DNA from: an uncultured Opitutia bacterium
GTDB lineage: Bacteria; Verrucomicrobiota; Verrucomicrobiia; Opitutales; Opitutaceae
Direction: 5' to 3'
NCBI GenBank assembly: GCA_903877135.1
Contig: CAIRCN010000085.1
Location: 1 to 64,000, forward strand
Length of the DNA: 64,000 bases
Part shown: piece by piece, positions 16,490 through 33,503 of the stretch
Position numbering within the stretch: position 1 is the stretch's first letter
Layout: every line of letters starts with the position of its first letter
Position numbers and translations under genes: made by a program
The notes under the pieces: model-generated
What the model was told of the DNA's origin: nothing
The model's database searches: none
The model's input: the letters and a program-made list of their open reading frames with translations, nothing else

Positions 16490-19400
16490 GCGGGAGAGGA
16501 AGCGGGGGTTGCGATGGCGCCGACGGCCGCGCGCTCTTTGGCGTAGTCACGGGCGATCAGCATATAAACGGCGGGGACGACAAACAAGGTGAACAAAGTT
16601 CCGACCGACATGCCAGTCGCAATGACGATGCCCATGTTGAATCGGCTGGCCGCGCCCGCGCCAGTCGCCACGATCAGCGGCACGACGCCGAACACCATCG
16701 CGGCGGTGGTCATGAGGATCGGGCGGAGGCGCACGGCGGCCGCGTGGTCGATCGCCTCGCGCTTGGTCTTGCCCTCCTCCTGCAGCCGGTTCGCGAATTG
16801 CACGATGAGGATGCCGTGTTTGCTGATGAGGCCGACCAGAGTGATGAAACCGACCTCGGTGTAGATGTTGATCGAGGCCGCGCCGAGGAAGAGAAACACG
16901 AGCGCGCCGACGAGCGTCATGGGCACGCTGCCGAGGAGGATGATGAACGGATCGCGAAAGCTCTCAAACTGCGCCGCCAGCACGAGGAAGATGATGATCG
17001 CGCCGAAGATGAACGCGACCACCAGCGAACTGCCTTCCTGCACATATTGCCGCGACTGCCCGCCGAAATCGACGCTGTAGCCCTGCGGGAGCGTGACCTT
17101 CGCCTGCGTGTTGAAGAAATCGAGCGCCTGGCCGAGCGAGACACCCTGCCGCGGCACGGCGGAAATCGTGGCCGAGTTGAGTTGCTGGAAGTGTTTTAGC
17201 GACTGCGGCTGCACCTTGGATTTTACCGTGGCAAAGGTCGAGAGCGGGACGAGTTTGCCGCCACCGCCGGTGACGTAGTAGTCGCCGAGCTGGTTCGGGT
17301 TGAGGCGAGACAAGCGTTCCACCTGCGGGATGACCTTGTAGCTGTTGCCCTGAATGTTGAAGTAATTGACGTATCCGCCGCCAAGCAGCGAACCGACGTC
17401 TGCCGCAACCTGCTGCATGCTGACGCCGAGATCGGCCGCCTTGTTGCGGTCGATTTCGATGTCGGCGCGCAACTGGTCGAATTTGAGGTCGCTGTCGGCG
17501 AAATAGAACAGGCCGCTCTTCATGGCGCGGAGGACCAGATCGTCCGCGACCTCAGCGATCCGCTCGGGCGCGTCGGTCGAGACGATGACGTATTGCACCG
17601 CCGGGCCGCTGCCGCCGCCGGGAAGCGGCGGGCGCAGGAATGCAAAGGTTTTCAGGCCTGACACGGTGTTGAGCTGCGCGGAGACTTCCGGCAGCAGTTG
17701 CAGCGTGCTCCGCTTGCGCGTGGGATCTCCCCACGGTTTGAAGACCATGCCGTTGATCGCGGTGTTAGTGCCCGAGTAGCCGACGATCTGGAAGACATTC
17801 GCGGCCTCGGGAAAGCTATTGAAGATCTTGGCGTTTTCCTCGGCGTAGCGGGCGGTCTGGTCGATGTTGGCGTTCGGCGCCGCCGTGGACATCGCGATGA
17901 TGATGCCTTGATCTTCGTCGGGGGCGAGTTCGTGCTTCGTCATCGACCAGAACGGATAGATGAGCAGCATCGACACTACCGGGATGACGAGCAGCACGGG
18001 CCAGGTCTGCATGGAGCGGCCGAGGAAGTGTTCGTAGCGCGCGGCCAGCTTTTCGAACGTGGTGTCGAGGAAGTGCGCGAAACCTTTTTTAGTGGTGCTG
18101 TGCTTGAGTAGTTTCGAGCACATCATCGGCGAGAGCGTGAGCGCGACGATGCCGGAGATGATGACGGCGCCCACGAGCGTGAAGGCGAACTCGCGGAAGA
18201 GCGTGCCGGTGAGGCCGCCCTGGAAGCCGATCGGCGCATAGACGGCGGCGAGCGTGATCGTCATGGCGATCACGGGGCCGCCGAGTTCGCGCGCGCCCTG
18301 CAGGCTGGCCGCCATCGGTGAGAGGCCCTCCTCGATATGCCGGTGGATATTTTCGACGACGACGATGGCGTCGTCCACCACGAGGCCGATGGCGAGCACC
18401 ATCGCGAGCAACGTGAGAAGGTTGATGGTGAAGCCCATCACGAGCATCAGGAAGCCCGCGCCGACGAGTGAGAGCGGCATGGCCACCAGTGGGATGATCA
18501 CCGAGCGAATCGAGCCGAGGAAAAGGAAAATCACCACGATCACGATGGCCAAGGCCTCGACGAGCGTGTCAATGACCTCGCTGATGGCACCGTTGATGTA
18601 GGCCGTGGCATCGTAGGGAATGTTGGCGTGCAGGCCGGCCGGCAACTGGGCGACGATTTCGGGAAACACTGCCCGCACGTCGCGGATCACGGTGAGCGCG
18701 TTGGCGTTCGGCAGGACGTTGATGCCAACGAAGGTGGCGTCCTGGCCGCCGTAGTGCACGACACTGTCGTAGCTCTCGGCGCCAAGCACGACGTCGGCGA
18801 CGTCCTTCAGGCGGATAACGGCACCATCCTGTTGGCGGATGACCAACTCCTTGAACTCGTCGGCCGTGTGGAGATCGGTCGCGGCGTTGAGATTGACGGA
18901 GATCATCGAGCCTTTAGTCGCGCCGACGGCGGCGAGGGAGTTGTTGGCCGCGAGCGCGACGCGGACCTGCGCGGGGCTGAGGCCGTAGGCGGCGAGCTTG
19001 TCGGTCTTGAGCCAGATGCGCATGGCAAACGTGCGGCCGCCGAGGATCTGGGCGCTCTGCACGCCATCGACGGCGGCGAGTTTTGGTTGCACCACGCGCG
19101 TTAGGTAGTCGGTGATCTGGTTGGAATCGAGTTCGGTGCTGTAGAAGCTCAGATACATCGATGAGGTGGTCTCGCCGACCTGCACGTCGATCACGGGGTC
19201 GAAGGCGTCAGCGGGAAGCTGGTTGCGCACCTTGTTGACCTTCGAAGTGATTTGAGTGAGCGCGGCGTTGGGGTCGTAGTTGAGCTTCAGGTGGGCCGTG
19301 ATGGTGCTGACGCTCGGCACGCTGCTGGACTCCAGGTAATCGATACCCTCCGCGCTCGCGATCTGCTTCTCGAGCGGCGAGGTGATGAAACCCTGGATGA

Positions 19401-19572
19401 GGTCGGCACTGGCGCCGGTGTAAATGGTGGAGACCGTTACAACCGCGCTGTTGCTGACGGGATACTGGCGCACGTTGAGCAGCGTGAAGGAACGCCAACC
19501 TACGAGCAGAATCAGGAGGCTGACGACCGTGGCCAGCACCGGTCGCTTGATGAAGATGTCCGTGAAATTCAT
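16486..19572 (-). CDS. RND multidrug efflux transporter, HAE1 (AcrB/MexB) type
   Basis: The 1028-residue inner-membrane proton/drug antiporter of the tripartite pump. It begins MNFTDIFIKRPVLATVVSLL, the usual HAE1 start. The proton-relay aspartates are present in TM4 (AIGLVVDDAIVVVENIHR), and the partner lysine is in TM10 (LISKHGILIVQFANRLQ). Two large periplasmic loops lie at about residues 30-335 and 560-860, giving normal family length. It lies 12 bp after the adaptor gene and overlaps tolC. Substrates cannot be predicted. Confidence 0.95.
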   Translation of the reverse strand: MNFTDIFIKRPVLATVVSLLILLVGWRSFTLLNVRQYPVSNSAVVTVSTIYTGASADLIQGFITSPLEKQIASAEGIDYLESSSVPSVSTITAHLKLNYDPNAALTQITSKVNKVRNQLPADAFDPVIDVQVGETTSSMYLSFYSTELDSNQITDYLTRVVQPKLAAVDGVQSAQILGGRTFAMRIWLKTDKLAAYGLSPAQVRVALAANNSLAAVGATKGSMISVNLNAATDLHTADEFKELVIRQQDGAVIRLKDVADVVLGAESYDSVVHYGGQDATFVGINVLPNANALTVIRDVRAVFPEIVAQLPAGLHANIPYDATAYINGAISEVIDTLVEALAIVIVVIFLFLGSIRSVIIPLVAMPLSLVGAGFLMLVMGFTINLLTLLAMVLAIGLVVDDAIVVVENIHRHIEEGLSPMAASLQGARELGGPVIAMTITLAAVYAPIGFQGGLTGTLFREFAFTLVGAVIISGIVALTLSPMMCSKLLKHSTTKKGFAHFLDTTFEKLAARYEHFLGRSMQTWPVLLVIPVVSMLLIYPFWSMTKHELAPDEDQGIIIAMSTAAPNANIDQTARYAEENAKIFNSFPEAANVFQIVGYSGTNTAINGMVFKPWGDPTRKRSTLQLLPEVSAQLNTVSGLKTFAFLRPPLPGGGSGPAVQYVIVSTDAPERIAEVADDLVLRAMKSGLFYFADSDLKFDQLRADIEIDRNKAADLGVSMQQVAADVGSLLGGGYVNYFNIQGNSYKVIPQVERLSRLNPNQLGDYYVTGGGGKLVPLSTFATVKSKVQPQSLKHFQQLNSATISAVPRQGVSLGQALDFFNTQAKVTLPQGYSVDFGGQSRQYVQEGSSLVVAFIFGAIIIFLVLAAQFESFRDPFIILLGSVPMTLVGALVFLFLGAASINIYTEVGFITLVGLISKHGILIVQFANRLQEEGKTKREAIDHAAAVRLRPILMTTAAMVFGVVPLIVATGAGAASRFNMGIVIATGMSVGTLFTLFVVPAVYMLIARDYAKERAAVGAIATPASSPA

Positions 19573-19584
19573 GAGGGCGGCGGC

Positions 19585-20724
19585 TCAGGTATTGGGCAGG
19601 CGGGGCTGCGTGCTGTTGGCCGGGGCGACCGTATTGTTGATCTGGACGGCGGAACCGTTGCGCAGTTTAAGCTGGCCAGAAGTGACCACTTCGTCGCCCG
19701 GGCTCACGCCCTTGAGCACCGCCACCTGGTCGCCGAGCTGGCTGCCGAGCTGGACGAATTGTTGGCGCACCGTCAGCACGGGCTGACCGCTGGCATCCTT
19801 GCCCTTGGATTCGACGATGTAGACCGAGTTGCCGTAAGGGTTGTAGCTGATCGTGGTCTGCGGGAGCGTCACAAACTTGTCCTGCTGCGGCAGCACGACA
19901 TCGACGCCGCCGAACATGCCGGGGCGGATGCGCTCATCAGCGTTGCGCACGGTGGCCTGCACCTGGACGTTGCGGTTGGTGTCGTCGACCTTGGCGTTGA
20001 TGGCGTTGATCGCGCCAGCGAAGACGACCCCGGGATAGGCATCGAGCGTCACCTGCACAGCCTGCCCGACCTTGAGATTGGTCACGTCCTGCTGGGGCAG
20101 GGAAAAATTCACATAGAGCGGGTCCATGGCCTCAAGCGGCACGATCAAAGTGCCGCCCTTGATGAACTGGCCGAGGTTGATCTGGCGGATGCCGGTGCGG
20201 CCCGCGAAAGGCGCGCGGATCGTCTTTTTCGCGATGATCGAGCGGATGGCATCGGCGTTGGCGGCGGTCTGCCGCGCTTGCGCCTCGCCCCCATCGAGGT
20301 CGGCCTGTGAATTGGTGTCCTTCGCGCGCAGTTCCTGCGCGCGTTTCAGGTTGAGGCGGGCGAGATCGGCGCTGGCCTCGGCGCTAGCAAGCTGAGCCAT
20401 CTCGGTGGAGACGTCGAGCTGCACGAGCAGGTCGCCCTTGTTCACGAGCGCCCCTGATTCGAAGGCGATTTTGACCACGGTGCCATCGAGCTCATTGGCG
20501 ATAGTGATGCCCTCCGCCGCAGAGAAACTGCCCACGGCATGGAGCCGGCGCTGCCAGATCTCCTCGGGGGCTTTCATCGAGGAGACGACGGTGGGCGCGG
20601 GTTTTTGTGCCGCCATTTTGGCGATGATGGCACGGATGGTGATGATCTTCCAGGCGGCGATAGCGCCGATCACGAGGATCACGCCGACGGCCATCCCGAT
20701 GGAACGCTTGGCTGTTAGGGTCAT
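19585..20724 (-). CDS. RND efflux periplasmic adaptor, MexA/HlyD family
   Basis: The 379-residue membrane-fusion protein linking the RND pump to TolC. An N-terminal anchor (residues about 7-24) precedes the first half-lipoyl segment (ANELDGTVVKIAFESGALVNKGDLLVQLD region), a coiled-coil hairpin (about 110-165), the second lipoyl half (IRAPFAGRTGIRQINLGQFI) and beta-barrel and membrane-proximal domains. The anchor lacks a lipobox, so it is held by a transmembrane helix rather than lipid. It is 47 bp after marR and 12 bp before the pump gene, in the same operon. Confidence 0.93.
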   Translation of the reverse strand: MTLTAKRSIGMAVGVILVIGAIAAWKIITIRAIIAKMAAQKPAPTVVSSMKAPEEIWQRRLHAVGSFSAAEGITIANELDGTVVKIAFESGALVNKGDLLVQLDVSTEMAQLASAEASADLARLNLKRAQELRAKDTNSQADLDGGEAQARQTAANADAIRSIIAKKTIRAPFAGRTGIRQINLGQFIKGGTLIVPLEAMDPLYVNFSLPQQDVTNLKVGQAVQVTLDAYPGVVFAGAINAINAKVDDTNRNVQVQATVRNADERIRPGMFGGVDVVLPQQDKFVTLPQTTISYNPYGNSVYIVESKGKDASGQPVLTVRQQFVQLGSQLGDQVAVLKGVSPGDEVVTSGQLKLRNGSAVQINNTVAPANSTQPRLPNT

Positions 20725-20771
20725 GGTGGAGAGGATAATTGGAAACGTAGCAGACTTGAAAAGGGTAGGAA

Positions 20772-21347
20772 TCAGGCGTGAACCGCGTGAACGGATGCAA
20801 AGATCGCAGAGTCGGGCAATGGCGGAGCCTCCGCCGCCCGTTGGGTGATCTTGCCGAGCAGTCGCACCATGGTTCGCCGCTCGCCTTCATCGAGTGGCTC
20901 CATCAGCCACGCCATGCGCTGAAAATGGGGCGGCAGAATCTCCCGCAGTAGTTGTTCGCCTTTGGGAGTGAGCCGGACGGACGTCATGCGCCGGTCGTCC
21001 AAATCGGGCGTGCGCGTGACGAGTCCATCGCGTTCCAGCGTGTCGACCAAGCCGGTGATTGTGGCCCGTGTAACACCTGTGCGTTCGGCCAATTCGGCGG
21101 GACTAAGCGTCTGCCCGCCGCCCTGACTTTGCCGGCAGGTGCGCCAGAGCGATATGAGCACGCTGAAGCGGCCCTGCGACATGCTATGGCTCGCCAGATG
21201 CGCCTCCACCACGCGGAACGCCTCGTCGCCGGACCGCAGCAAATGCAGGAATGCCTCTGTCGCCGACGGATCGAGGTCGGGAAACTCGCGCGACGCCTCG
21301 AGAAGGTTCTCGTAGCGCGGTAGGTCGTTCAGCATCAGAAGTGGCAT
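20772..21347 (-). CDS. MarR-family transcriptional regulator of the efflux operon
   Basis: A 191-residue winged-helix repressor. The DNA-binding part reads LSPAELAERTGVTRATITGLVDTLERDGLVTR, followed by the wing DLDDRRMTSVRLTPKGEQLL, both classical MarR features; residues about 1-60 form the dimerisation helices. ATG 21347 is preferred over ATG 21383, because the latter lies inside the operator palindrome and the promoter -10. As first gene of the efflux operon it probably represses itself and hlyD-RND-tolC until a ligand binds. Confidence 0.92.
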   Translation of the reverse strand: MPLLMLNDLPRYENLLEASREFPDLDPSATEAFLHLLRSGDEAFRVVEAHLASHSMSQGRFSVLISLWRTCRQSQGGGQTLSPAELAERTGVTRATITGLVDTLERDGLVTRTPDLDDRRMTSVRLTPKGEQLLREILPPHFQRMAWLMEPLDEGERRTMVRLLGKITQRAAEAPPLPDSAIFASVHAVHA

Positions 21348-21363
21348 GGCAATAAAGTCGTGA

Positions 21364-21387
21364 ATGGTTAGGAACCTAACCATAATA
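21364..21387 (-). promoter_or_regulatory. MarR operator palindrome overlapping the -10
   Basis: Perfect 9-bp arms ATGGTTAGG and CCTAACCAT are separated by two bases (21364-21383). On the minus strand a TATTAT -10-like hexamer (21382-21387) abuts and slightly overlaps the palindrome, so bound repressor would cover the transcription start. It lies 17 bp upstream of the MarR start codon. Confidence 0.75.
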
Positions 21388-22375: not shown

Positions 22376-22747
22376 ATGATCACCATCCCCGTAGCAAAAA
22401 AACGCGCCAAGGAAACCCTCGTGGGCTTCCCTCCCCGCGTGACCGCCGCCTACCTCAACGTCGCCGAGACCGGCTCACCCGAGAGCCTCGACATCGCCGT
22501 GCTCGGAGTGCTCCATTTTTACCTGGCCAAAAAACCGGCGGAGCCACTCGACACGCTGCCGGGCACCACCAGGCTGGTTGAGGATCTCGGCTGCGACTCG
22601 CTCACGATGATGGATTCGGTCTTCATGATGGAGAGTCTCTTCGATATCAAAATTAACGACCTCGAACTGAGCCGCCTCGCGACCCTCGACGAATTGCGCG
22701 CCCACCTGCGGCAGTTGGTCAAGGTTGGCGCCGTGCCGGCAACCTGA
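22376..22747 (+). CDS. Acyl carrier protein-like protein with N-terminal extension
   Basis: A 123-residue ACP-type carrier. The phosphopantetheine serine is S75 in EDLGCDSLTMMDSVFMMES, followed by FDIKINDLELSRLATLDELR, the usual helix II-III part. About 40 residues precede the carrier fold (VAKKRAKETLVGFPPRVTAA), longer than the roughly 78-residue fatty-acid-synthase ACP, so this looks like a dedicated carrier. ATG 22376 was chosen over an upstream TTG. The ketosynthase gene follows after 12 bp, implying that it carries that enzyme's acyl substrate. Confidence 0.83.
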   Translation: MITIPVAKKRAKETLVGFPPRVTAAYLNVAETGSPESLDIAVLGVLHFYLAKKPAEPLDTLPGTTRLVEDLGCDSLTMMDSVFMMESLFDIKINDLELSRLATLDELRAHLRQLVKVGAVPAT

Positions 22748-22759
22748 CCGGGCCGCACC

Positions 22760-24031
22760 ATGGTTGCCCCGCGGATCGTCATCTCGGGTCTGGGATTCGT
22801 CACCAGCATTGGCAACGACCGTGCGTCCGTCTCCGCGAGTCTGAGGGAACTCCGCTCGGGAATAGGGAGCTATGATTTTTTCCCCGGCACCGATCTGCCG
22901 GTCAAAGTCGCCGGCACGATCAAGGGCTTTGACACGTCGGCCTTGCAATGGGCCGGGTGGACCTGGCCGGATGGCTACGGCATCAAGCAGGAAATCCTGC
23001 GGGGCATGGCACCGCACGGACTCTACGCCTTGTGCGCAGTCGAGCAGCTGATCGCCGACGGCCGACTTACAACCGACGAACTCGCCAGTGACGAGACCGG
23101 CTTGTTTTGCGGTTCGGCCGGCTCGCCCCGCCTGATGCGGAGTTATCTGAACCAGATCCACGACTCCCAAGGCTTGCGCGTGCCGCCCATGGGAATCGTG
23201 AGCGCCATCGCCGGCACCCTGAATTTCAATCTCGCGGCCCACCTCGGGGTGCGCGGGGCGGTGGCCGGATTTTCTTCGGCGTGCGCGTCGACGACGCAGG
23301 CACTGGGCTATGCCTTTGATGAAATCCGGCTTGGGCGGCTGCGTCGCGTGCTCGTGGTGGGCGGCGAAGACCTCAACACGGACGCGATTTTCCCCTTCCA
23401 AGGCATGCGCGCCCTCTCACGGAACCCTGACCCGGCACGCGCATCGCGGCCGTTTGACCGGGATCGGGATGGTTTCGTCGGCACCGGCGGCAGTGTCGCG
23501 CTGCTGTTGGAGGACGCGGAAGCGGCGCGCGCCCGCGGAGCCACCATTTACGCGGATATGCTGGGGTGGGGCCAGTCCGCGGACGGGCAAAGCATTGCCG
23601 GTTCGGACCCTGAAGGACGGGGGCTGGTGCGGGCGATGCGCCGCGCCTTGGCAGCGAGCAGCGTGGCCCCGGCGGAAATTAATTATGTGAACGCGCACGC
23701 CACCTCCACCCCGGCGGGCGACGCCTCCGAGGCCCAAGCCCTGCGGGCCGTGTTTACCGAGGTCGGTGCCCATCCCCAAGTCAGCAGCACCAAGGCGCTG
23801 ACGGGGCACGGACTCTCCCTTTCAGGCGTCATGGAGACAGGATTTTGCGCCGTCAGCATCGCAGAGGGTTTCATCCCGGGCGCAGCCAATCTGGAAAATC
23901 CGGATCCGGCCTGCATCGGCCTGAATCTGCCCCGCACGACCCTGCCGGTGGCGCCGCGCACCGTGCTGAAGAACAGCAGCGGCTTCGGCGGCTGCAACGT
24001 CTGCGTAGTTCTCCGACGTTGCGATAAATAG
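22760..24031 (+). CDS. Beta-ketoacyl-ACP synthase, FabF/KAS II type
   Basis: A 423-residue condensing enzyme with the full Cys-His-His triad: C175 in SSACASTTQ, H313 in NAHATSTPAGD and H350 in TKALTGHGLSLSG. The C-terminal glycine-rich NSSGFGGCNVCVV motif is also present. It is probably catalytically active, unlike chain-length factors that lack the cysteine. It sits next to its own ACP, away from any fab gene cluster in this window, which suggests specialised acyl-chain synthesis. A perfect hairpin separates it from the next gene. Confidence 0.9.
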   Translation: MVAPRIVISGLGFVTSIGNDRASVSASLRELRSGIGSYDFFPGTDLPVKVAGTIKGFDTSALQWAGWTWPDGYGIKQEILRGMAPHGLYALCAVEQLIADGRLTTDELASDETGLFCGSAGSPRLMRSYLNQIHDSQGLRVPPMGIVSAIAGTLNFNLAAHLGVRGAVAGFSSACASTTQALGYAFDEIRLGRLRRVLVVGGEDLNTDAIFPFQGMRALSRNPDPARASRPFDRDRDGFVGTGGSVALLLEDAEAARARGATIYADMLGWGQSADGQSIAGSDPEGRGLVRAMRRALAASSVAPAEINYVNAHATSTPAGDASEAQALRAVFTEVGAHPQVSSTKALTGHGLSLSGVMETGFCAVSIAEGFIPGAANLENPDPACIGLNLPRTTLPVAPRTVLKNSSGFGGCNVCVVLRRCDK

Positions 24032-24089
24032 GGTTCTGCCATTAATTCTGATTGGCAGGCTGCGCATGGTCATCAACGTTTGGCCATTT

Positions 24090-24119
24090 CTCGATGTCTG
24101 TCCCCCGATGGACATCGAG
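24090..24119. repeat. Perfect 9-bp inverted repeat between ketosynthase and esterase genes
   Basis: CTCGATGTC (24090-24098) and GACATCGAG (24111-24119) frame a 12-base loop in the only sizeable gap (101 bp) of the cluster. No T run follows, so it is more likely a regulator-binding site, attenuator or RNA-processing hairpin than a terminator. Confidence 0.6.
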
Positions 24120-24132
24120 GCCAGTCACATAC

Positions 24133-25026
24133 ATGTCTGTTAAGTTCGCCCTTCACACCTCCGTCAGCGCTCCGCTTCAAATGCCAGACCAAGGCATATT
24201 CATGCCCGGACGCAATGGCCGGGCCGTGGTGCTGATCCATGGGCTGACGGGAACCCCCAACGAAATGCGGTTTATCGCCTGGTTCCTCAACACCCACGGC
24301 TACACGGTGTCGTGCCCCCGGCTGGCGAATCACGGCCAGCCGCTGGATATTCTGAAGTCCACGCACTGGGAGGATTTTTATGGCAGCGTGCGGCAGGCCT
24401 ACCAAGCCCTGCGCGCTGATCACAGTCACATTTACGCCAGCGGCCTGTCGATGGGGGCGCTGCTGGCGCTCCTGCTGGCGGACGAATTTCAAGGGGCGGT
24501 GGCCGGCGTGAGCTGCCTGTCGCCCACGCTGTTCTACGACGGCTGGAACGTGCCGTGGTATCACTTCTTGCTGCCGCTCGGTTCGCACACGCCGCTGGGC
24601 CATTACGCCTACTTCAAGGAGGAGCCGCCCTACGGGCTCAAGAACGAGCGCCTCCGCGAAAAAGTGCACCAATTCTATAAGAATGCGGACATCCATGCGA
24701 TCCGGGATGTGGAGCGTTTTGGCTACCCCTTTTTCCCGGTGCGCCTGCTCGGCGAACTCCGCCGGCTGGTGAGACACCTGCAGAAGCGCCTCCCGTTCGT
24801 GCATTGTCCCTGCCAGATCATCCAGGCGCGGCACGACGACATGAGCAGCGTGCGCAACGCCCAGTTCATCCACGACCGCGTCGCGTCCACCCGCAAGGAA
24901 ATCGTCTATTTGGAGAACTCCTACCATATCATTACCGCCGATCAGGAGCGCGGGAAAGTCGCGCAGAGCATGCTGGATTTTTTCGCCCACGAAGAGAACC
25001 ATGCCCAAGACCATGCACCTCCCTGA
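24133..25026 (+). CDS. Alpha/beta hydrolase, carboxylesterase/thioesterase-like
   Basis: A 297-residue serine hydrolase without signal peptide. The oxyanion region is VVLIHGLTGTPNEMRF, and the nucleophile elbow is GLSMG with S106. RHDDMSSV and NSYHIITAD supply the likely Asp and His of the triad. It resembles Est30-like carboxylesterases; in this neighbourhood it could release an acyl product from the carrier protein. ATG 24133 fits the homologous start. Its 3' end overlaps the HAD gene by 26 bp. Confidence 0.85.
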   Translation: MSVKFALHTSVSAPLQMPDQGIFMPGRNGRAVVLIHGLTGTPNEMRFIAWFLNTHGYTVSCPRLANHGQPLDILKSTHWEDFYGSVRQAYQALRADHSHIYASGLSMGALLALLLADEFQGAVAGVSCLSPTLFYDGWNVPWYHFLLPLGSHTPLGHYAYFKEEPPYGLKNERLREKVHQFYKNADIHAIRDVERFGYPFFPVRLLGELRRLVRHLQKRLPFVHCPCQIIQARHDDMSSVRNAQFIHDRVASTRKEIVYLENSYHIITADQERGKVAQSMLDFFAHEENHAQDHAPP

Positions 25027-25720
25027 CGCAAAAAAAACTGCGCCTAGCCCCAAGCACGAGCCGGCCGGCTTCCGTGTTTTCATCGACTTCGATAACACCA
25101 TCTCCATCGGCGACGTCCTCGACGGCGTGATCGAGAAATTTTCCATCGATGACAGCTGGCGTGCTCTCGAAAACGCGTGGGCGGACGGACGGATCGGCGC
25201 GCGGGAATGCCTCGACGGACAAGTGCGCGGCCTGCGCGCGGACTGGCCCGACCTCGCTCGTCACCTCGAGGGCGTAAAGCTCGATCCGGGATTCGCGACG
25301 CTGCGGGATCTCCTGCGACGCGAAGGCGTCGAACTGACCATCGTCAGCGACAACTTCGACGTTTTGTTGGGCCATATTCTTCGGCACAACGGCCTGGCCG
25401 ACGTCGCCTGCTACGCCAATCATCTTGAACTCGCCGACGACAGCCTACTGCCGTCTTTTCCCTTCAACAACCCAGACTGCCCGACCTGCGCCCACTGCAA
25501 GAAAACCCATTTCCTGCCGCCCAACGACGACGCGCGCCAGGTCATTTTCATCGGCGACGGACGGTCGGACATCTGCCCCGCGCGACACGCCGACATCGTC
25601 TTTGCCAAGGACAGTCTTTTGACTTATCTGCAAAATGCCGTGATTCCCTGCATCGCCTACCACGACTTGACCGAGGTCGCCCACGCCCTGAAAAAACACC
25701 TTCATGAAAGCAAAATCTGA
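25001..25720 (+). CDS. HAD-IB phosphatase, MtnX / phosphoserine phosphatase-like
   Basis: A 239-residue haloacid dehalogenase-type phosphatase. Motif I is FIDFDNTIS (nucleophile D29, acid D31), motif II lies in LTIVSDNFDVLLG and motif III is IFIGDGRSDICPA. A CPTCAHCKK cysteine cluster, seen in MtnX-like proteins, precedes motif III. No methionine-salvage gene is nearby, so MtnX function is doubtful; it more likely dephosphorylates an intermediate of this cluster's pathway. It overlaps both neighbours (26 and 17 bp). Confidence 0.85.
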   Translation: MPKTMHLPDAKKTAPSPKHEPAGFRVFIDFDNTISIGDVLDGVIEKFSIDDSWRALENAWADGRIGARECLDGQVRGLRADWPDLARHLEGVKLDPGFATLRDLLRREGVELTIVSDNFDVLLGHILRHNGLADVACYANHLELADDSLLPSFPFNNPDCPTCAHCKKTHFLPPNDDARQVIFIGDGRSDICPARHADIVFAKDSLLTYLQNAVIPCIAYHDLTEVAHALKKHLHESKI

Positions 25721-27116
25721 AACCAATCACGCCAAAGGATCGCTGAGTGAGAAAGAACTGCTTGAACTCGAGTCGCGCTACTGCTCCTGGGGCGACACCG
25801 TCCACTACGCGAAGGAACTGACCTTCTTCAGCGAGGCCAACGGCAGTTTTCTCTACGACCGCAAGGGCACCGAATACCTTGACCTGCAGATGTGGTATTC
25901 CGCGGCGAATTTCGGCTACCGCAACCCGCGCCTGAACGCCGTCCTGAAAAAGCAGATCGACACTCTCCCCCAACTCGCCTGCCAATACCTGCACGAGGAG
26001 CGCGTGCTTCTCGCCACCAAGCTCGCGCAACGGATCGAGCGCACCCTCGGCGTGAAGGGCCGCATCCACTTCAACGTCGGCGGCGCCTCCGCGATCGAGG
26101 ACGCGATGAAGGTCGTGCGCAACCACACCGGCCGCAACCACACCTTCGCGTTCATGGGCGGCTACCACGGCCGCACGCTCGGCGCCACGTCGATCACCTC
26201 GAGCTACCGCTACCGCGAGCGCTTCGGGCACTTCGGCGATCGTGCGAACTTCATTCCGTTTCCCTATTGCTTCCGCTGCCATCTCGGCCTGAAGCCGGAG
26301 ACCTGCGGCATCGCGTGCCTCCGCCAATTCGAGAAAATGTTCGAGTCGGAGTATTACTCCGTCGTCAACCCGAAGAACAACAAGAGCGAGTATGGCGCGT
26401 TCTTCGTCGAGCCCGTCCAGGCCACCGGCGGCTACATCGTGCCGCCGAAGACTTATTTCAAGGAGCTCAAGCAAACCCTCGACCGCTACGGCATCCTCCT
26501 CGTCGTGGACGAAATCCAGATGGGCTTTTTCCGCACGGGAAAATTCATGTCCATCGAACATTTCGACGTCGTCCCCGACGTCATCGTCTTCGGCAAGGCG
26601 ATGACCAACGGCCTCAACCCCATCTCCGGCATCTGGGCGCGCGAAGACCTCATCTCACCGCAGGTTTTCCCGCCGGGCTCCACACACTCGACGTTTTCTG
26701 CCAATCCGCTCGGCACCGCCGCCGGCCTCGCCGTCATGGACTTGATTGAGGACGAGGATTTCGAGACGACGGTGCCGCAGAAAGGCGCCTACTTCGTCAA
26801 GAAGCTTGAGGCGCTCAAGGCCAAATACCCGTGCATCGGCCACGTCGGCGGCCTCGGCCTCGCCCTGCGCATGGAAATGTGCCGCGACGACGGGCACACA
26901 CCCAACCGCGAGCTCACCGACGCGATCATGAATATCGGCCTGAGCGGCACGCTCACTACCGGTGGCAAACAGCGCGGCTTGATCCTCGACATCGGCGGCT
27001 ACTACAAGAACGTCTTCACGCTCGCGCCGTCACTCTACATCACCGAGGAAGAGATCGATCTCGGCGTGGCGCTGTTCGAAGAGGCCCTGCAACGCGCGCT
27101 GAAGGCCCGCGCCTGA
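25704..27116 (+). CDS. Class III PLP-dependent aminotransferase
   Basis: A 470-residue fold-type I aminotransferase of the ornithine/GABA/glutamate-semialdehyde class. The internal-aldimine lysine is K298 in DVIVFGKAMTNGLNP; LLVVDEIQMGFFRTGK supplies the PLP-binding Asp, and GGYHGRTLGATS the substrate loop. A four-cysteine patch (YCFRCHLGLKPETCGIAC, residues 188-205) is present, as in some relatives. The substrate cannot be read from sequence; the setting suggests amination of a keto-acyl or small-molecule aldehyde. It overlaps the phosphatase gene by 17 bp, so the two are translationally linked. Confidence 0.88.
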   Translation: MKAKSETNHAKGSLSEKELLELESRYCSWGDTVHYAKELTFFSEANGSFLYDRKGTEYLDLQMWYSAANFGYRNPRLNAVLKKQIDTLPQLACQYLHEERVLLATKLAQRIERTLGVKGRIHFNVGGASAIEDAMKVVRNHTGRNHTFAFMGGYHGRTLGATSITSSYRYRERFGHFGDRANFIPFPYCFRCHLGLKPETCGIACLRQFEKMFESEYYSVVNPKNNKSEYGAFFVEPVQATGGYIVPPKTYFKELKQTLDRYGILLVVDEIQMGFFRTGKFMSIEHFDVVPDVIVFGKAMTNGLNPISGIWAREDLISPQVFPPGSTHSTFSANPLGTAAGLAVMDLIEDEDFETTVPQKGAYFVKKLEALKAKYPCIGHVGGLGLALRMEMCRDDGHTPNRELTDAIMNIGLSGTLTTGGKQRGLILDIGGYYKNVFTLAPSLYITEEEIDLGVALFEEALQRALKARA

Positions 27117-27142
27117 CCGTCGCAGCACGCGTGGGCTCGACG

Positions 27143-27568
27143 ATGAAACCCGACGCCTTCAAGATCCCCCGCGCGGTCGTCGTCGGCTTAGTGCTTGCCG
27201 TGGTGCTGGACACCATCATCCACATCGCGTGGAAGATCGCTGTAGCCGGCGTGCCCGCCGAGGCGTCGTTCGCCGCGATCATCCGCGCGGCCTGCGCGAG
27301 CCCGTGGTTTTGGGGCGCGATGCTCGCCTACGTGCTCCAGTTTTTCAACTGGATGCGAGTCTTGGCGCACGCCGACCTCAGTTACGCCCAGCCGCTGACT
27401 GCGCTCGGATATGTAGCCGTGTTGGTGGTTTCTCGTCTGGCGCTGCACGAGGAGATTTCACCGGTCAAGGTGGCCGGCGTGGCGCTGATTTTCGTCGGCG
27501 TCTATTTCATCAGTCGGACACCATTCCGCACCCCGGCCGCCGCGTCCGACCGCGAGTGCAGCCTATGA
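27143..27568 (+). CDS. SMR/EamA-type half-transporter, subunit 1
   Basis: A 141-residue four-helix membrane protein of the small multidrug resistance / EamA fold (hydrophobic segments about 10-28, 42-65, 72-92 and 100-118). The motif AQPLTALGYVAVLVVSRLAL and the closing VAGVALIFVGVYFISR are typical of this group, including ArnE/ArnF-type lipid-linked sugar flippases. Its stop overlaps the start of a second, different SMR-type gene (ATGA), so a heterodimer is expected. Confidence 0.82.
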   Translation: MKPDAFKIPRAVVVGLVLAVVLDTIIHIAWKIAVAGVPAEASFAAIIRAACASPWFWGAMLAYVLQFFNWMRVLAHADLSYAQPLTALGYVAVLVVSRLALHEEISPVKVAGVALIFVGVYFISRTPFRTPAAASDRECSL

Positions 27569-27945
27569 ACCATGAAGTCACCGGCCTCCTGCTAGTCCTC
27601 GCCGCCGTAGTGGTGGAGAGCTTCGCCCAGCTGTTTCTAAAGATCGGCGCTTCCGGCGGCCCGGGCATTCTCGTGCTGCCCTACCGCGATCACGTGGCCC
27701 GTTTTCATGCCGGCGCACCCGCCAGATACTGGGTGGCCGCCGGCCTGCTTGCCTACGTTGCGGAGGTCGTCCTTTACACGCTCGCCCTGCATTTCCTCGA
27801 CGTGAGCGTCGCGTTCCCTCTAGGCAGCCTCTGCTTCATCGGCGTCGCACTGCTCTCGCGGTGGTTCCTTGGGGAAACCGTTGGGAGCACGCGTTGGCTC
27901 GGCGTCGCCTTCATTTTGGTCGGCGCTATCTGTGTCGCGCTCTAG
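27565..27945 (+). CDS. SMR/EamA-type half-transporter, subunit 2
   Basis: A 126-residue four-helix SMR-fold protein. It opens LLLVLAAVVVESFAQLFLK, with a glutamate in TM1 where SMR pumps have their coupling acid, and closes WLGVAFILVGAICVAL. A longer loop between TM1 and TM2 distinguishes it from subunit 1. Paired unequal SMR genes of this type usually make an asymmetric heterodimer; ArnE/ArnF, which flips undecaprenyl-phosphate-linked aminoarabinose, is the closest functional model. It overlaps the previous gene by 4 bp and is 3 bp from the next. Confidence 0.82.
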   Translation: MNHEVTGLLLVLAAVVVESFAQLFLKIGASGGPGILVLPYRDHVARFHAGAPARYWVAAGLLAYVAEVVLYTLALHFLDVSVAFPLGSLCFIGVALLSRWFLGETVGSTRWLGVAFILVGAICVAL

Positions 27946-27948
27946 TCC

Positions 27949-29124
27949 ATGCCTGCGGAAGGTCCAACGGTGCAGATCGAGTTCGTGTCCCGGGTGGCGG
28001 AGATCGACGGATGCCTCTGGCGCGACTGCTTTCCGGCGCCGCTGGAGGGACGCTTCTGGTATCAGGCGCTCGAAGATTCCGGCCTCGGCGACCAGTTCAT
28101 GTTCTGCTACGCGCTGATCCGGAAAAACAGCCAGCCGGTCGGGATCGCGCCGTGTTTCCTGCACGATGTCCCCATCACTCTCGTCGCGCCGAGACCTGTC
28201 GCCTGGGTCCTCAGGCAGCTGGCCCGCGTCATCCCGCGCGTCGGTTATCAACGCACGCTCTTCGTCGGGTCGCCGTGTGCCGATGAGGGCACGGTTGGCC
28301 TCGTGCCAGGCCTGAAGCTCTCCGACATCGTAGTTGAACTGAGCGAGGCCGTGGGGCAGCGCGCGCGTGCGCTGAAGGCGCCGATGATCGTCTTCAAGGA
28401 CTTTCCGCAGGTCGATCTTCCCGTGCTGAAGACGCTCCGCGGCTTTTTTCCGAGCGTGAGTTATCCCGGCACTATCACGACCCTGCCGGCGCCCGGAAAA
28501 GACGCCTACTACCGGTCGCTCGCCCACACGCAGCGTCACAACCTGCTGAAAAAATTTCGCCGCTCCCGCGTGACGCTACCACTAGTCGCGAGCGCCGTGC
28601 AGCATCCGTCAGACGCCGAGCTTGCGGAGGTGTTCGGCCTGTTCCAGCAGACCTATGAAAGGGGGATAACGAAATTCGAGCGGCTGGACCGGCGGTTTTT
28701 CGAGCGCATCCGCGGCGAGCCGACCGCCCATTTCATTCTGCTGCGCGACTCGGCTGACAGCGCGCTCGCGGCGTTCATGCTGGTCTTTTGCCTCGGTGGA
28801 CGCGTGGTCAACAAGTTCATCGGGCTCGACTATCGCCGCGGCGAGAAGGCCTACCTGTATTTCCGCCTGTTCGATGCCGCCGTGGACTTCGCGTATGCCT
28901 GCCACGCCACGGAGCTGGCGAGCGGTCAGACCGGCTACCGCGCCAAATTCGACCTCGGCCACCGCCTCGTCCCGCTGTTCAATGTAGCTCGCCACGCCAA
29001 TCCACTCATTCATGCCATATTCCGGGCCGTGGGCACGCGGATAACCTGGCAAACCCTCGACGAGGATCTCGCCGTCTATCTGCGCGCCCATCCCGAGGTA
29101 AACGTCCCGTCCGCCACGCCCTGA
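27949..29124 (+). CDS. GNAT/FemAB-like N-acyltransferase (peptidogalycan-recognition/BioF2 type)
   Basis: A 391-residue protein resembling the double-GNAT-fold family around FemAB and DUF482. The C-terminal half carries FILLRDSADSALAAFMLVFC, FIGLDYRRGEKAYLYFRLFD and ELASGQTGYRAKFDLGHRLVP, the typical acetyl-CoA-fold strands and closing motif. Such enzymes transfer acyl or aminoacyl groups to amines. As last gene of the cluster, 3 bp after the SMR pair, it may acylate the amine made by the aminotransferase. Family assignment is moderate; the reaction is inference. Confidence 0.75.
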   Translation: MPAEGPTVQIEFVSRVAEIDGCLWRDCFPAPLEGRFWYQALEDSGLGDQFMFCYALIRKNSQPVGIAPCFLHDVPITLVAPRPVAWVLRQLARVIPRVGYQRTLFVGSPCADEGTVGLVPGLKLSDIVVELSEAVGQRARALKAPMIVFKDFPQVDLPVLKTLRGFFPSVSYPGTITTLPAPGKDAYYRSLAHTQRHNLLKKFRRSRVTLPLVASAVQHPSDAELAEVFGLFQQTYERGITKFERLDRRFFERIRGEPTAHFILLRDSADSALAAFMLVFCLGGRVVNKFIGLDYRRGEKAYLYFRLFDAAVDFAYACHATELASGQTGYRAKFDLGHRLVPLFNVARHANPLIHAIFRAVGTRITWQTLDEDLAVYLRAHPEVNVPSATP

Positions 29125-30936: not shown

Positions 30937-32112
30937 TCAATCTGTGGAAAATACCTGGAGGGTGAAGTAGAACGCCGCGCCCTGCCCCATTTCGCTCTCG
31001 ACGCGCACTTGGCCACCGTGCGCGAGCACGACGTGCTTCACGATCGCCAGGCCCAGGCCGGTGCCGCCCTGCTCGCGCGAACGGGCCTTGTCCACGCGGT
31101 AAAACCGTTCAAAGACCCGCGCCCGCGCCTCCGGCGGAATCCCCGGCCCGTCGTCGCGCACGCACACTTCCACTTTGCCGTTGTCCAGCGGGCGGCCTGA
31201 GACTGTGACTACGCCACAGGCCCGGCCGTATTTGATGCCGTTGTCGATCAGGTTGAAAAGCACCTGGTTCAGCCGGTCGGGGTCCGCATGCACCAGCAGC
31301 CCTTCTGGCAACGTGCTCTCCATTTGCATGGCCCGCACTTTCGCGCGCGGTGCAAGGTCATCTAGCGTTTGTTGCACCGCCGTGCGTAGCGAGCAGGGCT
31401 GAAGGTTCAGCGTGAGTCGGCCTGAGTCGAGCCGGGCGAGCATGAGTAAATCGTCGATCAGCAGTGTGAGCCGGTCGGCGTGGCGGTCGATAATCGCCAG
31501 CAGCCGGTCAAGTGCTACGGGGTCGGCTTTTGCGCCGTCCAGCAGTGTCTCGGCCGCGCTTTTGATGAGCGAAAGGGGAGTGCGCAACTCGTGGCTCACG
31601 TTGGCGACAAACTCCTGGCGCGCGCCCTCCAGTTCACGCATGCGGGTGAGGTCGTGAAACACCAACAAGGCACCGGTCCGCGCACCGGCAGCGTCATTGA
31701 GCGCGGCCCCGTTGATCTGGAGAATGTGCGGTGCCGGCCCTTCGAGTCGCAGCTCGTGGTCGAGAATGACTGGCTCTGTGGCGAGCCGCGCCACTAGGGC
31801 GGCGACTTCATGGTTGCGCACGGCCTCGAGCAGGGTGCCGCCGATCATCAGCCGGGAGAAACCGAACAGCGACTCCGCCGCGCGGTTGCTCAGCGTGATC
31901 CGGCCGGTGGCATCGAGAACGAGGAGACCCTCGACCATGCTGTCGAGCAGCGTCTCGAGTCGCTGTTGCTGCGCCTGCTGCGCGGCAACGTGCACGGCCC
32001 TCAGTGCCGCCATTTCCTCCGCGTGCCGCGCGACCTCAGCGAGATGTCGGCGGCGGGCCGTCCACCACAGACTGGCGATCACAGCGGCGAGGAGGGCGAA
32101 GACGAAGCTCAA
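30937..32112 (-). CDS. phoR: Phosphate regulon sensor histidine kinase PhoR
   Basis: A membrane sensor kinase of about 391 residues. One N-terminal transmembrane helix (SFVFALLAAVIASLWW) is followed by a coiled linker, a PAS domain (MVEGLLVLDATGRITLSN), HisKA with the phospho-His (FVANVSHELRTPLSLIK) and an HATPase domain with NGIKYG, RDDGPGIP and GGTGLGLAIVKHV. The start is uncertain: no good ATG lies between the phoB stop and the helix, so I use TTG 32112; in-frame sequence upstream overlaps phoB and is not PhoR-like. It is the last gene of the Pho operon. Confidence 0.88.
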   Translation of the reverse strand: MSFVFALLAAVIASLWWTARRRHLAEVARHAEEMAALRAVHVAAQQAQQQRLETLLDSMVEGLLVLDATGRITLSNRAAESLFGFSRLMIGGTLLEAVRNHEVAALVARLATEPVILDHELRLEGPAPHILQINGAALNDAAGARTGALLVFHDLTRMRELEGARQEFVANVSHELRTPLSLIKSAAETLLDGAKADPVALDRLLAIIDRHADRLTLLIDDLLMLARLDSGRLTLNLQPCSLRTAVQQTLDDLAPRAKVRAMQMESTLPEGLLVHADPDRLNQVLFNLIDNGIKYGRACGVVTVSGRPLDNGKVEVCVRDDGPGIPPEARARVFERFYRVDKARSREQGGTGLGLAIVKHVVLAHGGQVRVESEMGQGAAFYFTLQVFSTD

Positions 32113-32137
32113 GGCGAAGGATGGGGGTGCACCAGGT

Positions 32138-32824
32138 TCAGACTTCGGTCCGAAAACGGTAGCCAACGCCGCGGATGGTTTCGAGGTAGGCGGCCGCTGG
32201 GCCAATTTTCTCCCGCAGGCGCCGCATGTGGGTATCGACCGTGCGCGTGTCGATGGCGGTCTCATAGCCCCACACGTCCTGCAGTAGGCGTTCGCGCGTC
32301 TGCACTCGGCCCCGGCGCTTGGCCAGCAACGTGAGGAGGTTGAACTCGGTGGCCGTGAGCGTGACCGGCTTGCCTTCGATCTGCGCGACGTGCCGCGGCA
32401 CGTCGATTTCCAGCACGCCAAAACTCAGGTGGTCACCGGGCTCGTCGGCCGCCTTGCTGCGCTTGAGCAGCTTGCGGATGCGCAGCACGAGCTCGCGCGG
32501 GCTGTAAGGCTTGGTGACGTAGTCGTCGGCGCCAAGTTCGAGGCCGACGATGCGGTCCACCTCGGCCGCCTTGGCGGTGAGCATGAGCATGGGGATGGCC
32601 GCCGTTGCAGGATCCCGCCGTAAAATCTTGCAAACTTCGAGACCGTCGAGCTCAGGCAGCATGAGATCGAGCACAACGAGGTCCGGCCTCTCGGCCCGCA
32701 CCACGGCGATCGCCTTCAGCCCGTCGGTGGCAAAGAGCGGGCTGAACCCGGCCTCGCGCAGTTTGAAGCCTAGCACCTCCAGCGCGTCGGGCTCATCGTC
32801 AACGATCAGGATCTTGGGTTTCAT
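32138..32824 (-). CDS. phoB: Phosphate regulon response regulator PhoB
   Basis: A 228-residue OmpR/PhoB-type regulator. The receiver domain has D53 in LVVLDLMLPELDG and the lysine in ADDYVTKPYSP. The C-terminal winged helix reads TLTATEFNLLTLLAKRRG, then DTRTVDTHMRRLREKIG and YLETIRGVGYRF. It overlaps phoU by 26 bp and lies just upstream of phoR. It should bind the Pho box upstream of the porin gene and so control its own operon. Confidence 0.95.
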   Translation of the reverse strand: MKPKILIVDDEPDALEVLGFKLREAGFSPLFATDGLKAIAVVRAERPDLVVLDLMLPELDGLEVCKILRRDPATAAIPMLMLTAKAAEVDRIVGLELGADDYVTKPYSPRELVLRIRKLLKRSKAADEPGDHLSFGVLEIDVPRHVAQIEGKPVTLTATEFNLLTLLAKRRGRVQTRERLLQDVWGYETAIDTRTVDTHMRRLREKIGPAAAYLETIRGVGYRFRTEV

Positions 32825-33479
32825 TCGTTTTCAGGGCGGAATGGCGGATGTCTTTCGCCTCGAAAAGATATACCACCTCCTCGGCAATGTTGGTCGCGTG
32901 GTCGGCGATGCGTTCAAGGCATTTGGAGATGACCATGAGGTGCAGGCAGCGGGTGATGGTGGTCGGACGCTCGACCATGTAGCTCGATAGCTCGCGGTGC
33001 AACTGCCGGTTGAGGTCGTCCACCTCCTTGTCGCGCGGGATGACGGTGCGGGCCAGCTCGGGCTTCCGCTCGACGAACGCCGTCAGCGCGTCGCGGAGCA
33101 TCTCGAGCGCCATCTGGGCCATGCGTGGAAGGTCGATGTAGGGCTTGAGTTGCGGCTCGGCGTTGAGGTCGTGGGCGCGGCGGGCGATGGAGCAAGCCTC
33201 GTCGCCCACGCGCTCGAGATTCTGGGAAATCTTCATCGCCACGGTGATGAAGCGCAGGTCGGTGGCCAGGGGCGCTTTCGTCAGCAGGTGCAGGGCGATG
33301 TCGTCGACCTCAATCTCGAACTGATCGATGGCGTTGTCCTCCTGTTGAACCTTGAGGGCCAGTGCGTCATCGCGCTCCACCAGTGAGCGCATGGCCCGGG
33401 AGAGGGCCGAAGAGGAGTGGCTGGCCATCGCCAGGATGGCTTCCTTCAACTGGTTGATTTCTTCGCTGTAGTGCGTCAT
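32799..33479 (-). CDS. phoU: Phosphate signalling complex protein PhoU
   Basis: A 226-residue all-helical PhoU with two repeats, each ending in the E/DxxxD metal-site motif: ISQNLERVGDEACSIARRA in the first and ISKCLERIADHATNIAEEV in the second. It couples Pst transporter state to PhoR. It is 24 bp after pstB and overlaps phoB. The upstream sequence CCCCAATTCCC has no Shine-Dalgarno. Confidence 0.96.
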   Translation of the reverse strand: MTHYSEEINQLKEAILAMASHSSSALSRAMRSLVERDDALALKVQQEDNAIDQFEIEVDDIALHLLTKAPLATDLRFITVAMKISQNLERVGDEACSIARRAHDLNAEPQLKPYIDLPRMAQMALEMLRDALTAFVERKPELARTVIPRDKEVDDLNRQLHRELSSYMVERPTTITRCLHLMVISKCLERIADHATNIAEEVVYLFEAKDIRHSALKTNETQDPDR

Positions 33480-33503
33480 GGGAATTGGGGTTTGGGGTCG
33501 GTC

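Follow-up and report, generated by a model that had tools for sequence, protein, structure and literature searches.

The eight genes at positions 22376 to 29124 of the window (the whole 64,000-nucleotide stretch analysed), whose host belongs to an Opitutaceae-type family of the Verrucomicrobiota, are members of a conserved, horizontally shuffled unit, and we give an even chance to the view that they represent one version of an undescribed pathway to an N-acylated amino lipid. The original prediction of a compact cluster was accurate as an observation (genes, coordinates, overlaps and catalytic residues of the eight + strand ORFs are all borne out), and its interpretation is partly supported. 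The genes are:

22376..22747, + strand: acyl carrier protein (ACP), 123 aa; carrier Ser75; PF00550
22760..24031, + strand: FabF-type ketosynthase (KS), 423 aa; C175/H313/H350; ketoacyl-synt N + C
24133..25026, + strand: alpha/beta hydrolase (HYD), 297 aa; GLSMG nucleophile motif; PF12146 (Hydrolase_4)
25001..25720, + strand: MtnX-like HAD-IB phosphatase (HAD), 239 aa; PF06888/PF12710 (Put_Phosphatase/HAD)
25704..27116, + strand: class III PLP enzyme (AT), 470 aa; Lys298; PF00202 (Aminotran_3)
27143..27568, + strand: SMR/EamA half-transporter 1 (SMR1); PF00892 (EamA)
27565..27945, + strand: SMR/EamA half-transporter 2 (SMR2); PF00892 (EamA)
27949..29124, + strand: FemAB/GNAT-fold acyltransferase (FEM), 391 aa; predicted fold

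The HYD and HAD genes overlap by 26 bp (25001–25026), HAD and AT by 17 bp (25704–25720), and SMR1 and SMR2 by 4 bp (27565–27568, ATGA), while the gaps are 3 bp (SMR2–FEM), 12 bp (ACP–KS), 26 bp (AT–SMR1) and, as the longest in the cluster, 101 bp (KS–HYD). The cluster has no base-composition signature of an island, its GC of 0.60–0.65 in 2-kb blocks resembling that of the window.

In six family genomes the eight genes all stand side by side, and four of these share the same order. Among 252 family genomes HAD is present in 15 and FEM in 16, with 15 common to both (hypergeometric probability 3e-23, phylogeny ignored); the threshold of E≤1e-40 leaves out HAD matches at 2.9e-7, 3.7e-5 and 1.7e-4 and a second one in G160 (5.5e-9), and FEM matches in G252 (5.9e-25) and G256 (1.0e-21). 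AT is found in all 16 FEM genomes, once truncated and once as a 43-residue piece, both at contig ends; the piece is that counted for G160, the same genome having no AT at E≤1e-60 (G288, via L011). Seven of the 16 carriers have AT and FEM on separate contigs, and since the AT contigs of G227 (7.7 kb) and G160 (5.4 kb) are short, the two genes may yet be linked there. The orthologues are thus not scattered without order among the family genomes, the outcome named beforehand as telling against a single pathway; the kept order, the adjacency and the co-occurrence even across contigs all favour one. A presence throughout the Verrucomicrobiota was considered and rejected, as AT was matched at E≤1e-140 in one of 387 evenly drawn genomes of the phylum, the window's own (at most the best four candidates being scored per genome).

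Related modules occur on plasmids of Rhizobium, Agrobacterium, Phyllobacterium and Bartonella, and Xanthomonas sacchari has all eight gene types, including KS and ACP. When 72,556 plasmid records were searched, HAD was matched in 47 (E≤1e-20), FEM in 41 and AT in 34, all AT and FEM records lying within the HAD set; these counts cover plasmid records alone, 13 of the 47 having no AT, and include many near-identical strains. Thirteen of the 47 records were examined, and 12 of these encode HAD, a class III PLP enzyme, FEM, an arginase-like protein, HYD and two SMR proteins (the Bartonella HY406 genes are split over two loci, HY038 was viewed around AT only, and members at L112–L115 other than AT and the L113 FEM are assigned by record annotation). 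A DegT-family PLP enzyme stands beside the SMR pair in X. sacchari, Bartonella HY406 and Roseomonas mucosa HV2.

In an order of the Cyanobacteriota, AT is present in 14 of 15 FEM-positive versus 4 of 15 FEM-negative genomes, the latter chosen by hand from 38 (Fisher 5e-4, phylogeny ignored), and HAD in 13 and five of the same two sets, G324 having HAD without AT. Of the 18 genomes with AT, 17 have HAD next to it, and in the eighteenth AT is truncated at the contig start. No KS or ACP gene was seen beside module genes in the Cyanobacteriota loci examined, an SMR gene is absent at one FEM locus (L127), and HYD was seen in six of the 15 FEM loci, so that a complete core is not demonstrated in this order. 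All 14 genomes that have both genes carry AT and FEM on separate contigs or at a distance from each other on the same contig. This separation, like that in seven of the 16 family genomes, would fit neighbours brought together by chance and sharing no function, but we regard such an explanation as extremely improbable in view of the near-perfect co-occurrence of the genes when unlinked and the repetition of clustering in several lineages.

The recurrent core of the unit consists of a PLP enzyme, HAD, HYD, FEM and two SMR proteins; the acyl-chain genes (ketosynthase/ACP, desaturase, CFA synthase) are variable. Identity between window and proteobacterial proteins is 58–60 % for AT, 21–26 % for FEM, 31–41 % for HAD and 33–41 % for HYD, and the difference between AT and FEM would follow from a constant amine combined with a variable acyl side. 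Towards the Cyanobacteriota, FEM is 51–54 %, HAD 36 % and HYD 33–34 % identical. We note that the contrast between AT and FEM is not clean, HAD, the presumed head-group enzyme, being as diverged as HYD, and FEM being better conserved than HAD in the Cyanobacteriota comparison.

AT has a class III aminotransferase fold (PF00202, 268.9 bits, cut-off 30.5) and its catalytic Lys298 is invariant in alignments; it passes no NCBIfam cut-off among the 25 best models and forms its own clade in the tree (100/99). Its predicted structure (pLDDT 68) was left out of the analysis. The gate of glutamate-dependent class III enzymes, which we take to be GabT E211 together with R398 (substrate binding), is carried by GabT, ArgD and PatA of E. 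coli and absent in BioA and HemL. In AT, Thr241, Asp429 and Thr439 stand where this gate would be, with both threonines in 25 of 25 AT proteins aligned, and the missing Glu/Arg pair places AT outside the GabT/ArgD/PatA type. On three plasmids (Roseomonas, Aureimonas and Azospirillum) a HemL-like enzyme replaces AT next to HAD; the first two, which were scanned, score 440 and 428 bits against the HemL equivalog model TIGR00713 (cut-off 527.3), and 463 and 450 bits against NF000818, a subfamily model of the same name whose cut-off of 398 they exceed. The missing gate and these substitutes make ordinary glutamate transamination doubtful, so that of the proposal that the enzyme aminates an intermediate, the PLP fold and Lys298 hold while the amination itself is not secured.

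HAD scores 81.3 bits against TIGR01489 (cut-off 81.55) and 62.8 against TIGR01488 (cut-off 45), and D29/D31, S116, K167 and GDGRSD are conserved in the alignment. By profile, the nearest solved structures are MtnX 2fea (101.6 bits) and phosphoserine phosphatases (54.6 bits), although HAD is not itself assignable as an MtnX phosphatase (TIGR03333, 53.2 bits, equivalog cut-off 303.2). Acting together on a phosphorylated precursor, the PLP enzyme and HAD could yield a small amine head group, a candidate being serinol via serinol phosphate by analogy with RtxA. As PMC3222319 describes it, RtxA is one bifunctional protein in which PLP-dependent amination of a phosphorylated C3 ketone, with glutamate as preferred donor, precedes dephosphorylation; AT plus HAD may be likened to it as an analogy of chemistry alone, and AT is without the glutamate gate. 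The lack of a carboxylate gate in AT speaks against an ordinary glutamate donor in a serinol scheme.

A polyamine- or guanidino-headed lipid, in which the arginase-like protein and the PLP enzyme would process an arginine-derived head for acylation by FEM, seems to us very unlikely. It would give a role to the arginase-like protein of the examined Alphaproteobacteria and X. sacchari operons (some by annotation), which also adjoins AT in one Opitutaceae-type genome (G228); the invariant Asp429 of AT, where BioA has Arg at the aligned position, could be a site for a cationic group; and the HemL-like enzymes reach 400–401 bits against the guanitoxin enzyme GntE, below its cut-off of 525. Nevertheless, 31 of the 33 genomes in which it was sought, 19 of them module-positive, have no arginase-like match (the exceptions being G228 and fragments in G160), and HAD would be left without an obvious role.

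KS is a KAS-type ketosynthase with an intact catalytic triad of Cys175, His313 and His350, confirmed by script, and the carrier Ser75 sits in a DSL motif of ACP (PF00550, 24.1 bits, cut-off 20.8). Both proteins lie outside the recurrent core. KS is not the FabF equivalog (TIGR03150, 320.8 bits, cut-off 493.75), and a separate FabF (624 bits) is encoded on another contig of the host genome. HYD retains Ser106 (in GLSMG) and His265 in the alignment, and among solved structures the profile places it closest to thermostable monoacylglycerol lipases (154 bits).

These genes could instead make a ceramide-like long-chain amine, KS yielding a beta-ketoacyl thioester that HYD releases, the PLP enzyme aminating the chain in replacement of the serine palmitoyltransferase (SPT) step, and FEM N-acylating the base; this we consider unlikely. 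The KS of the window shares 55 % identity with that of an SPT-type cluster in G256 that also contains a distant FEM and an ACP, G252 has FEM–ACP–SPT, and a 3-hydroxyacyl-CoA dehydrogenase gene is upstream of FEM at L012/L013 and in four of 13 further Cyanobacteriota loci. On the other hand, the operons examined in Rhizobiaceae, Phyllobacterium, Roseomonas and Aureimonas have neither KS nor ACP, HAD would have no role, AT is conserved more than any acyl-chain enzyme, and the host has an SPT-like gene at another locus (contig C53). The dehydrogenase was rejected: it is absent near FEM in nine of the 13 loci, and those that have it share wider synteny. A link to the SPT pathway was likewise rejected: SPT-like proteins of at least 69 % identity are encoded outside the window cluster in 16 of 20 genomes (including the query and an 89 % copy), and the module-carrying G225 and G226 have SPT homologues of 35 % only, as do G289 and G290 (35–36 %).

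The bacterial sphingolipid (dihydroceramide) pathway comprises Spt, AcpR, AasR, CerR and bCerS/YghO according to PMC9386255 and PMC11087976, the latter placing the dihydroceramide N-acyltransferase in the cytoplasm, before translocation. The window cluster resembles it in its dedicated ACP, PLP enzyme and separate N-acyltransferase, and in the distant FEM and related KS of the G256 cluster, but has no SPT or other alpha-oxoamine synthase among its eight genes and has instead the class III PLP enzyme with HAD, besides the SMR pair. A place for FEM among the ceramide synthases was set aside on profile comparison, which detected no relation to YghO of E. coli BL21(DE3) (hhalign probability 0.9 %, E 0.063).

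At 1e-3 FEM matches no Pfam family, its score against PF04339 (FemAB_like; E 0.014, 15.0 bits) being below the gathering score of 27, which the X. sacchari, Rhizobium and Bartonella relatives exceed (41–57 bits); relatives at eight loci are 51–67 % identical. Its AlphaFold model (pLDDT 91, pTM 0.89) resembles FemX, MprF and N-myristoyltransferase folds, with Z of about 16–22 (FemX 6snr, Z 21.6, rmsd 4.8 over 300 residues; N-myristoyltransferase, Z about 16–17). We are confident that the predicted fold is of the tandem-GNAT type near these proteins, as the FemAB/GNAT-like assignment had proposed, and it is compatible with N-acyl transfer. A GNAT-type enzyme also N-acylates a small amine with acyl-ACP in ornithine lipid synthesis (OlsB/OlsA), although the window cluster has no OlsA-type O-acyltransferase and has a PLP enzyme, a phosphatase and an SMR pair.

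SMR1 scores 28.9 bits against PF00892 (cut-off 28.2) and SMR2 31.3. The best NCBIfam matches of both are ArnF and ArnE (35.4 and 22.6 bits for SMR1, 43.2 and 37.6 for SMR2), far below the equivalog cut-offs of 99 and 92 bits, respectively; the ArnE/F-like character proposed for the pair is thus supported as a sub-threshold resemblance. ArnE/ArnF is the flippase of the 4-amino-4-deoxy-L-arabinose lipid A pathway, and the likeness extends to the pairing of two small EamA/SMR proteins whose genes accompany those for making an amine, and to the DegT-family enzyme beside the pair in the three strains above; an Arn glycosyltransferase or decarboxylase is not among the eight. SMR/EamA proteins are also able to export small compounds, and the pair might secrete a small molecule (an N-acyl amino compound, signal or siderophore-like product) and not serve a membrane lipid. 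The patchy, plasmid-borne distribution of the operons and a TolC–ABC–adaptor set downstream of two of them in Agrobacterium would suit such a product, but we doubt it, given the resemblance, albeit sub-threshold, to lipid-flippase subunits and the desaturase and CFA synthase within Rhizobium and Phyllobacterium operons, which point to membrane-type acyl chains.

Synthesis and export of an amine-bearing lipid is the probable function of the cluster, the product and its head group being inferred; an N-acyl amino lipid is supported by the FEM fold, the co-occurrence and the acyl-tailoring genes. ACP and KS may extend or dedicate an acyl chain, FEM would place an acyl group on the amine at the cytoplasmic side, HYD could trim or remodel an acyl ester or release acyl-ACP, and SMR1/SMR2 might serve as an inner-membrane flippase for the product, the role that ArnE/ArnF has for its own lipid. 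That this amounts to a new amino-lipid class, with the amine installed by an unstudied PLP enzyme (gate-less class III or, interchangeably, HemL-like) acting with HAD on a phosphorylated precursor, FemAB-fold N-acylation and SMR-heterodimer flipping, and with a spread over Verrucomicrobiota, one order of the Cyanobacteriota and, rhizobial and agrobacterial plasmids included, Alpha- and Gammaproteobacteria, we put at slightly less than even. The arginase-like gene, DegT and HYD have no fixed step in the scheme, KS and ACP are missing in the Rhizobiaceae operons examined, and four FEM-negative Cyanobacteriota genomes have AT, all of which count against an amino lipid.

Keyword searches of the open-access literature (subscription journals lying outside it) gave no description of the gene set or lipid, in keeping with the earlier statement that it matches no nameable pathway; PMC7688217 is unrelated to the gene set, and the literature on serinol and sphingolipids yielded no more than background. 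A compact pathway common to unrelated bacteria, among them plant symbionts and uncultured lineages, most likely makes an undescribed membrane component or signal. That two unlike PLP enzymes, neither with the gate, stand next to one set of partners points to a testable chemical step, and with the Rhizobium plasmid versions, whose strains are culturable and non-pathogenic, genes can be deleted and lipids followed by mass spectrometry.

Orthologues of ACP, 55–73 % identical, are present in five other family genomes (L006 and L037 being one contig). The search for the window KS type left out G131 and G160. Another FabF paralogue, found in a 530-bit search of at most the best seven candidates per genome, has nine carriers, of which all but G144 and G196 are module-positive.

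The eight genes at 22376-29124 form one unit. The ORFs of the original prediction are real, the overlaps of 26, 17 and 4 bp and the 3-bp gap said to join them are all correct, and so are the assigned catalytic residues (ACP Ser75; ketosynthase C175, H313 and H350; class III PLP enzyme K298). Cluster and surroundings have the same base composition and are laid out as follows.

16486-21383, opposite strand, upstream: presumably an RND efflux pump, its adaptor and a MarR-type regulator
upstream of the cluster, same strand: a gene that we take to be RNase PH-like
22376-29124, forward strand: ACP, FabF-type ketosynthase (KS), alpha/beta hydrolase (HYD), MtnX-like phosphatase (HAD), class III PLP enzyme (AT), two SMR half-transporters (SMR1, SMR2) and FemAB/GNAT-fold acyltransferase (FEM)
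downstream of the cluster: a convergent gene
30937-34709, opposite strand, downstream: presumed phosphate-regulation genes (histidine kinase, response regulator, PhoU-like, PstB-like)

The head-to-tail arrangement that had suggested a single pathway is conserved in related genomes, the order ACP-KS-HYD-HAD-AT-SMR1-SMR2-FEM being identical in four: the window's own, G102 (L006/L037), G025 (L008) and G218 (L036). All eight genes are also adjacent in G155 (L038) and G038 (L015), with FEM-SMR2-SMR1 on the opposite strand, and G018 has SMR1-SMR2-FEM-HYD-HAD-AT without adjoining KS or ACP. At L040-L044 and L046, loci of six genomes, HYD-HAD-AT faces a different FabF paralogue in convergent orientation; ACP was found by similarity in four of the six and from the gene map in a fifth (L042). 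Among 252 genomes of the host family, HAD (E<=1e-40) has 15 carriers and FEM 16, and 15 genomes have both; in G131, the one FEM carrier without HAD, a contig end cuts AT short next to SMR1-SMR2-FEM. AT and FEM lie on separate contigs in seven of the 16 carriers, all drafts (G058, G160, G220 and G224-G227), and the contigs of G160 and G227 are so short that the two genes may still be linked. HAD and FEM are both absent from G001, the window's congener, and from two of the three g18 genomes listed (of these two, one has a completeness of 72 %), which would fit a module acquired and lost as a whole.

The ketosynthase is part of the module but exchangeable. A FabF above the curated cut-off is present in all ten genomes tested, and the window KS (320.8 bits) differs from these in type. 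The paralogue facing HYD-HAD-AT elsewhere, a second FabF, scores about 530 bits and so also passes the curated cut-off; this type (E<=1e-170) occurs in nine of the 252 genomes, seven of them module-positive (3e-8, phylogeny ignored), and in G018 it is on a different contig from the module. G228, G131 and G160 have no match to it, and no KS adjoins their module genes in the regions read.

A tblastn search of 72,556 plasmids with AT gave 34 records, from Rhizobium, Agrobacterium, Bartonella, Phyllobacterium, Sinorhizobium and Xanthomonas. Direct homology checks against the window genes or their relatives covered loci L106-L109, L111 and L138-L141. In the Rhizobiaceae and Phyllobacterium operons opened, the gene order is HAD-AT-arginase-like-SMR-(desaturase)-HYD-FEM-SMR-(CFA synthase). 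Xanthomonas sacchari carries HAD-AT, KS-ACP, FEM-arginase-like and DegT-SMR-SMR-HYD, so that every one of the eight window types is represented, with two more besides. Its KS shares 42 % identity with the 530-bit type and 34 % with the window KS, and the ACP match is weak. On the Bartonella HY406 plasmid the genes are in two places, AT-FEM-arginase-like and HAD-HYD-SMR-SMR-DegT. Next to the SMR pair, Roseomonas, Bartonella and X. sacchari all have a DegT/DnrJ/EryC1/StrS aminotransferase (L138, L140 and L111), the X. sacchari protein being 52 % identical to the Roseomonas and 39 % to the Bartonella counterpart.

HAD was found in 47 plasmid records, FEM in 41 and AT in 34, and by accession the 47 include every AT and FEM record. 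The 13 HAD records without AT come from Roseomonas (11), Aureimonas and Azospirillum (one each). Each of the three opened encodes a HemL-like class III enzyme next to HAD and divergent from it; the Roseomonas enzyme shares 73 % and 82 % identity with its two counterparts and about 25 % with AT. A second class III enzyme, 29 % identical to AT, is encoded close by on the Azospirillum plasmid. These HemL-like enzymes may be true HemL, since the two scanned score above the cut-off of a broader aminomutase subfamily, though below that of the hemL equivalog. AT itself reaches the cut-off of none of its 25 best NCBIfam models. In all 25 AT proteins checked, threonine occupies both the GabT-type Glu and Arg positions and aspartate that of the BioA Arg. 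As the Glu/Arg pair is absent from HemL and BioA too, AT and the HemL-like enzyme are, judged by these residues, class III branches without GabT-style glutamate anchoring. The gate residues argue against ordinary glutamate-dependent transamination.

The genome-contig scan also found FEM in two Cyanobacteriota genomes, of an order that is probably Obscuribacterales, in which 15 of 53 genomes have FEM. AT is present in 14 of these 15 versus four of 15 chosen FEM-negative genomes; of these 18 AT carriers, 17 have HAD no more than about 120 bp away from AT. At 13 further FEM loci, SMR1-SMR2-FEM is collinear in nine, the SMR pair adjoins FEM in another arrangement in three, and one has no SMR gene; four of the 13, as well as loci L012 and L013, have HYD close to FEM. 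At L129 and L131, in the same order, the SMR pairs are 39-53 % identical to those of X. sacchari and not of the local type, and the nearby FEM is of the local type.

In the tree, the 22 AT proteins group together (100/99) to the exclusion of four E. coli class III enzymes, and within this group the Cyanobacteriota AT branches first (remainder 87/82). The FEM tree, whose long branches call for caution, differs in placing Cyanobacteriota FEM (96/91) with that of the Opitutaceae family (100/98) in one unresolved group, and this suggests that FEM was transferred separately from AT. In G228, L039 (contig C89, 8493-14506) is an unusual module that combines family-type HYD-HAD-AT and an arginase-like gene adjoining AT with an SMR pair and an intermediate FEM. 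This FEM is about equidistant from the Opitutaceae type (34 % to the window FEM) and the proteobacterial type (31-32 % to rhizobial FEM); the tree groups it with proteobacterial FEM (94/88).

The predicted FEM model is a confident tandem GNAT (pLDDT 91), closest to FemX, aminoacyl-tRNA-dependent peptide synthases and MprF synthase domains, with N-myristoyltransferase lower. HAD comes closest to MtnX and phosphoserine phosphatase, HYD to monoacylglycerol lipases, and the SMR pair resembles ArnE/ArnF with scores below the cut-offs. Since the PLP enzyme, HAD, HYD, FEM and SMR pair recur, and the variable genes act mostly on acyl chains, we infer a product with a fixed amine head, which FEM would acylate on nitrogen and the SMR pair would then flip; every chemical step of this scheme is putative, and it has no step for HYD, the arginase-like protein or DegT. 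Keyword searches of the open-access literature found no description of such a pathway. Pathways for sphingolipids and related lipids have a similar make-up of dedicated acyl genes, PLP enzyme, N-acyltransferase and flippase. Family genomes also carry a separate sphingolipid-like set (L083-L086, L089, L071 and L072, among them contigs C53 and C4 of the window's genome), comprising an ACP-FabZ fusion, a KS 65-70 % identical to that of the SPT-type cluster of G256, an SDR, an SPT-like alpha-oxoamine synthase and a gene that we take to be glycosyltransferase-like; 16 of the 20 genomes queried have the SPT-like protein with at least 69 % identity.
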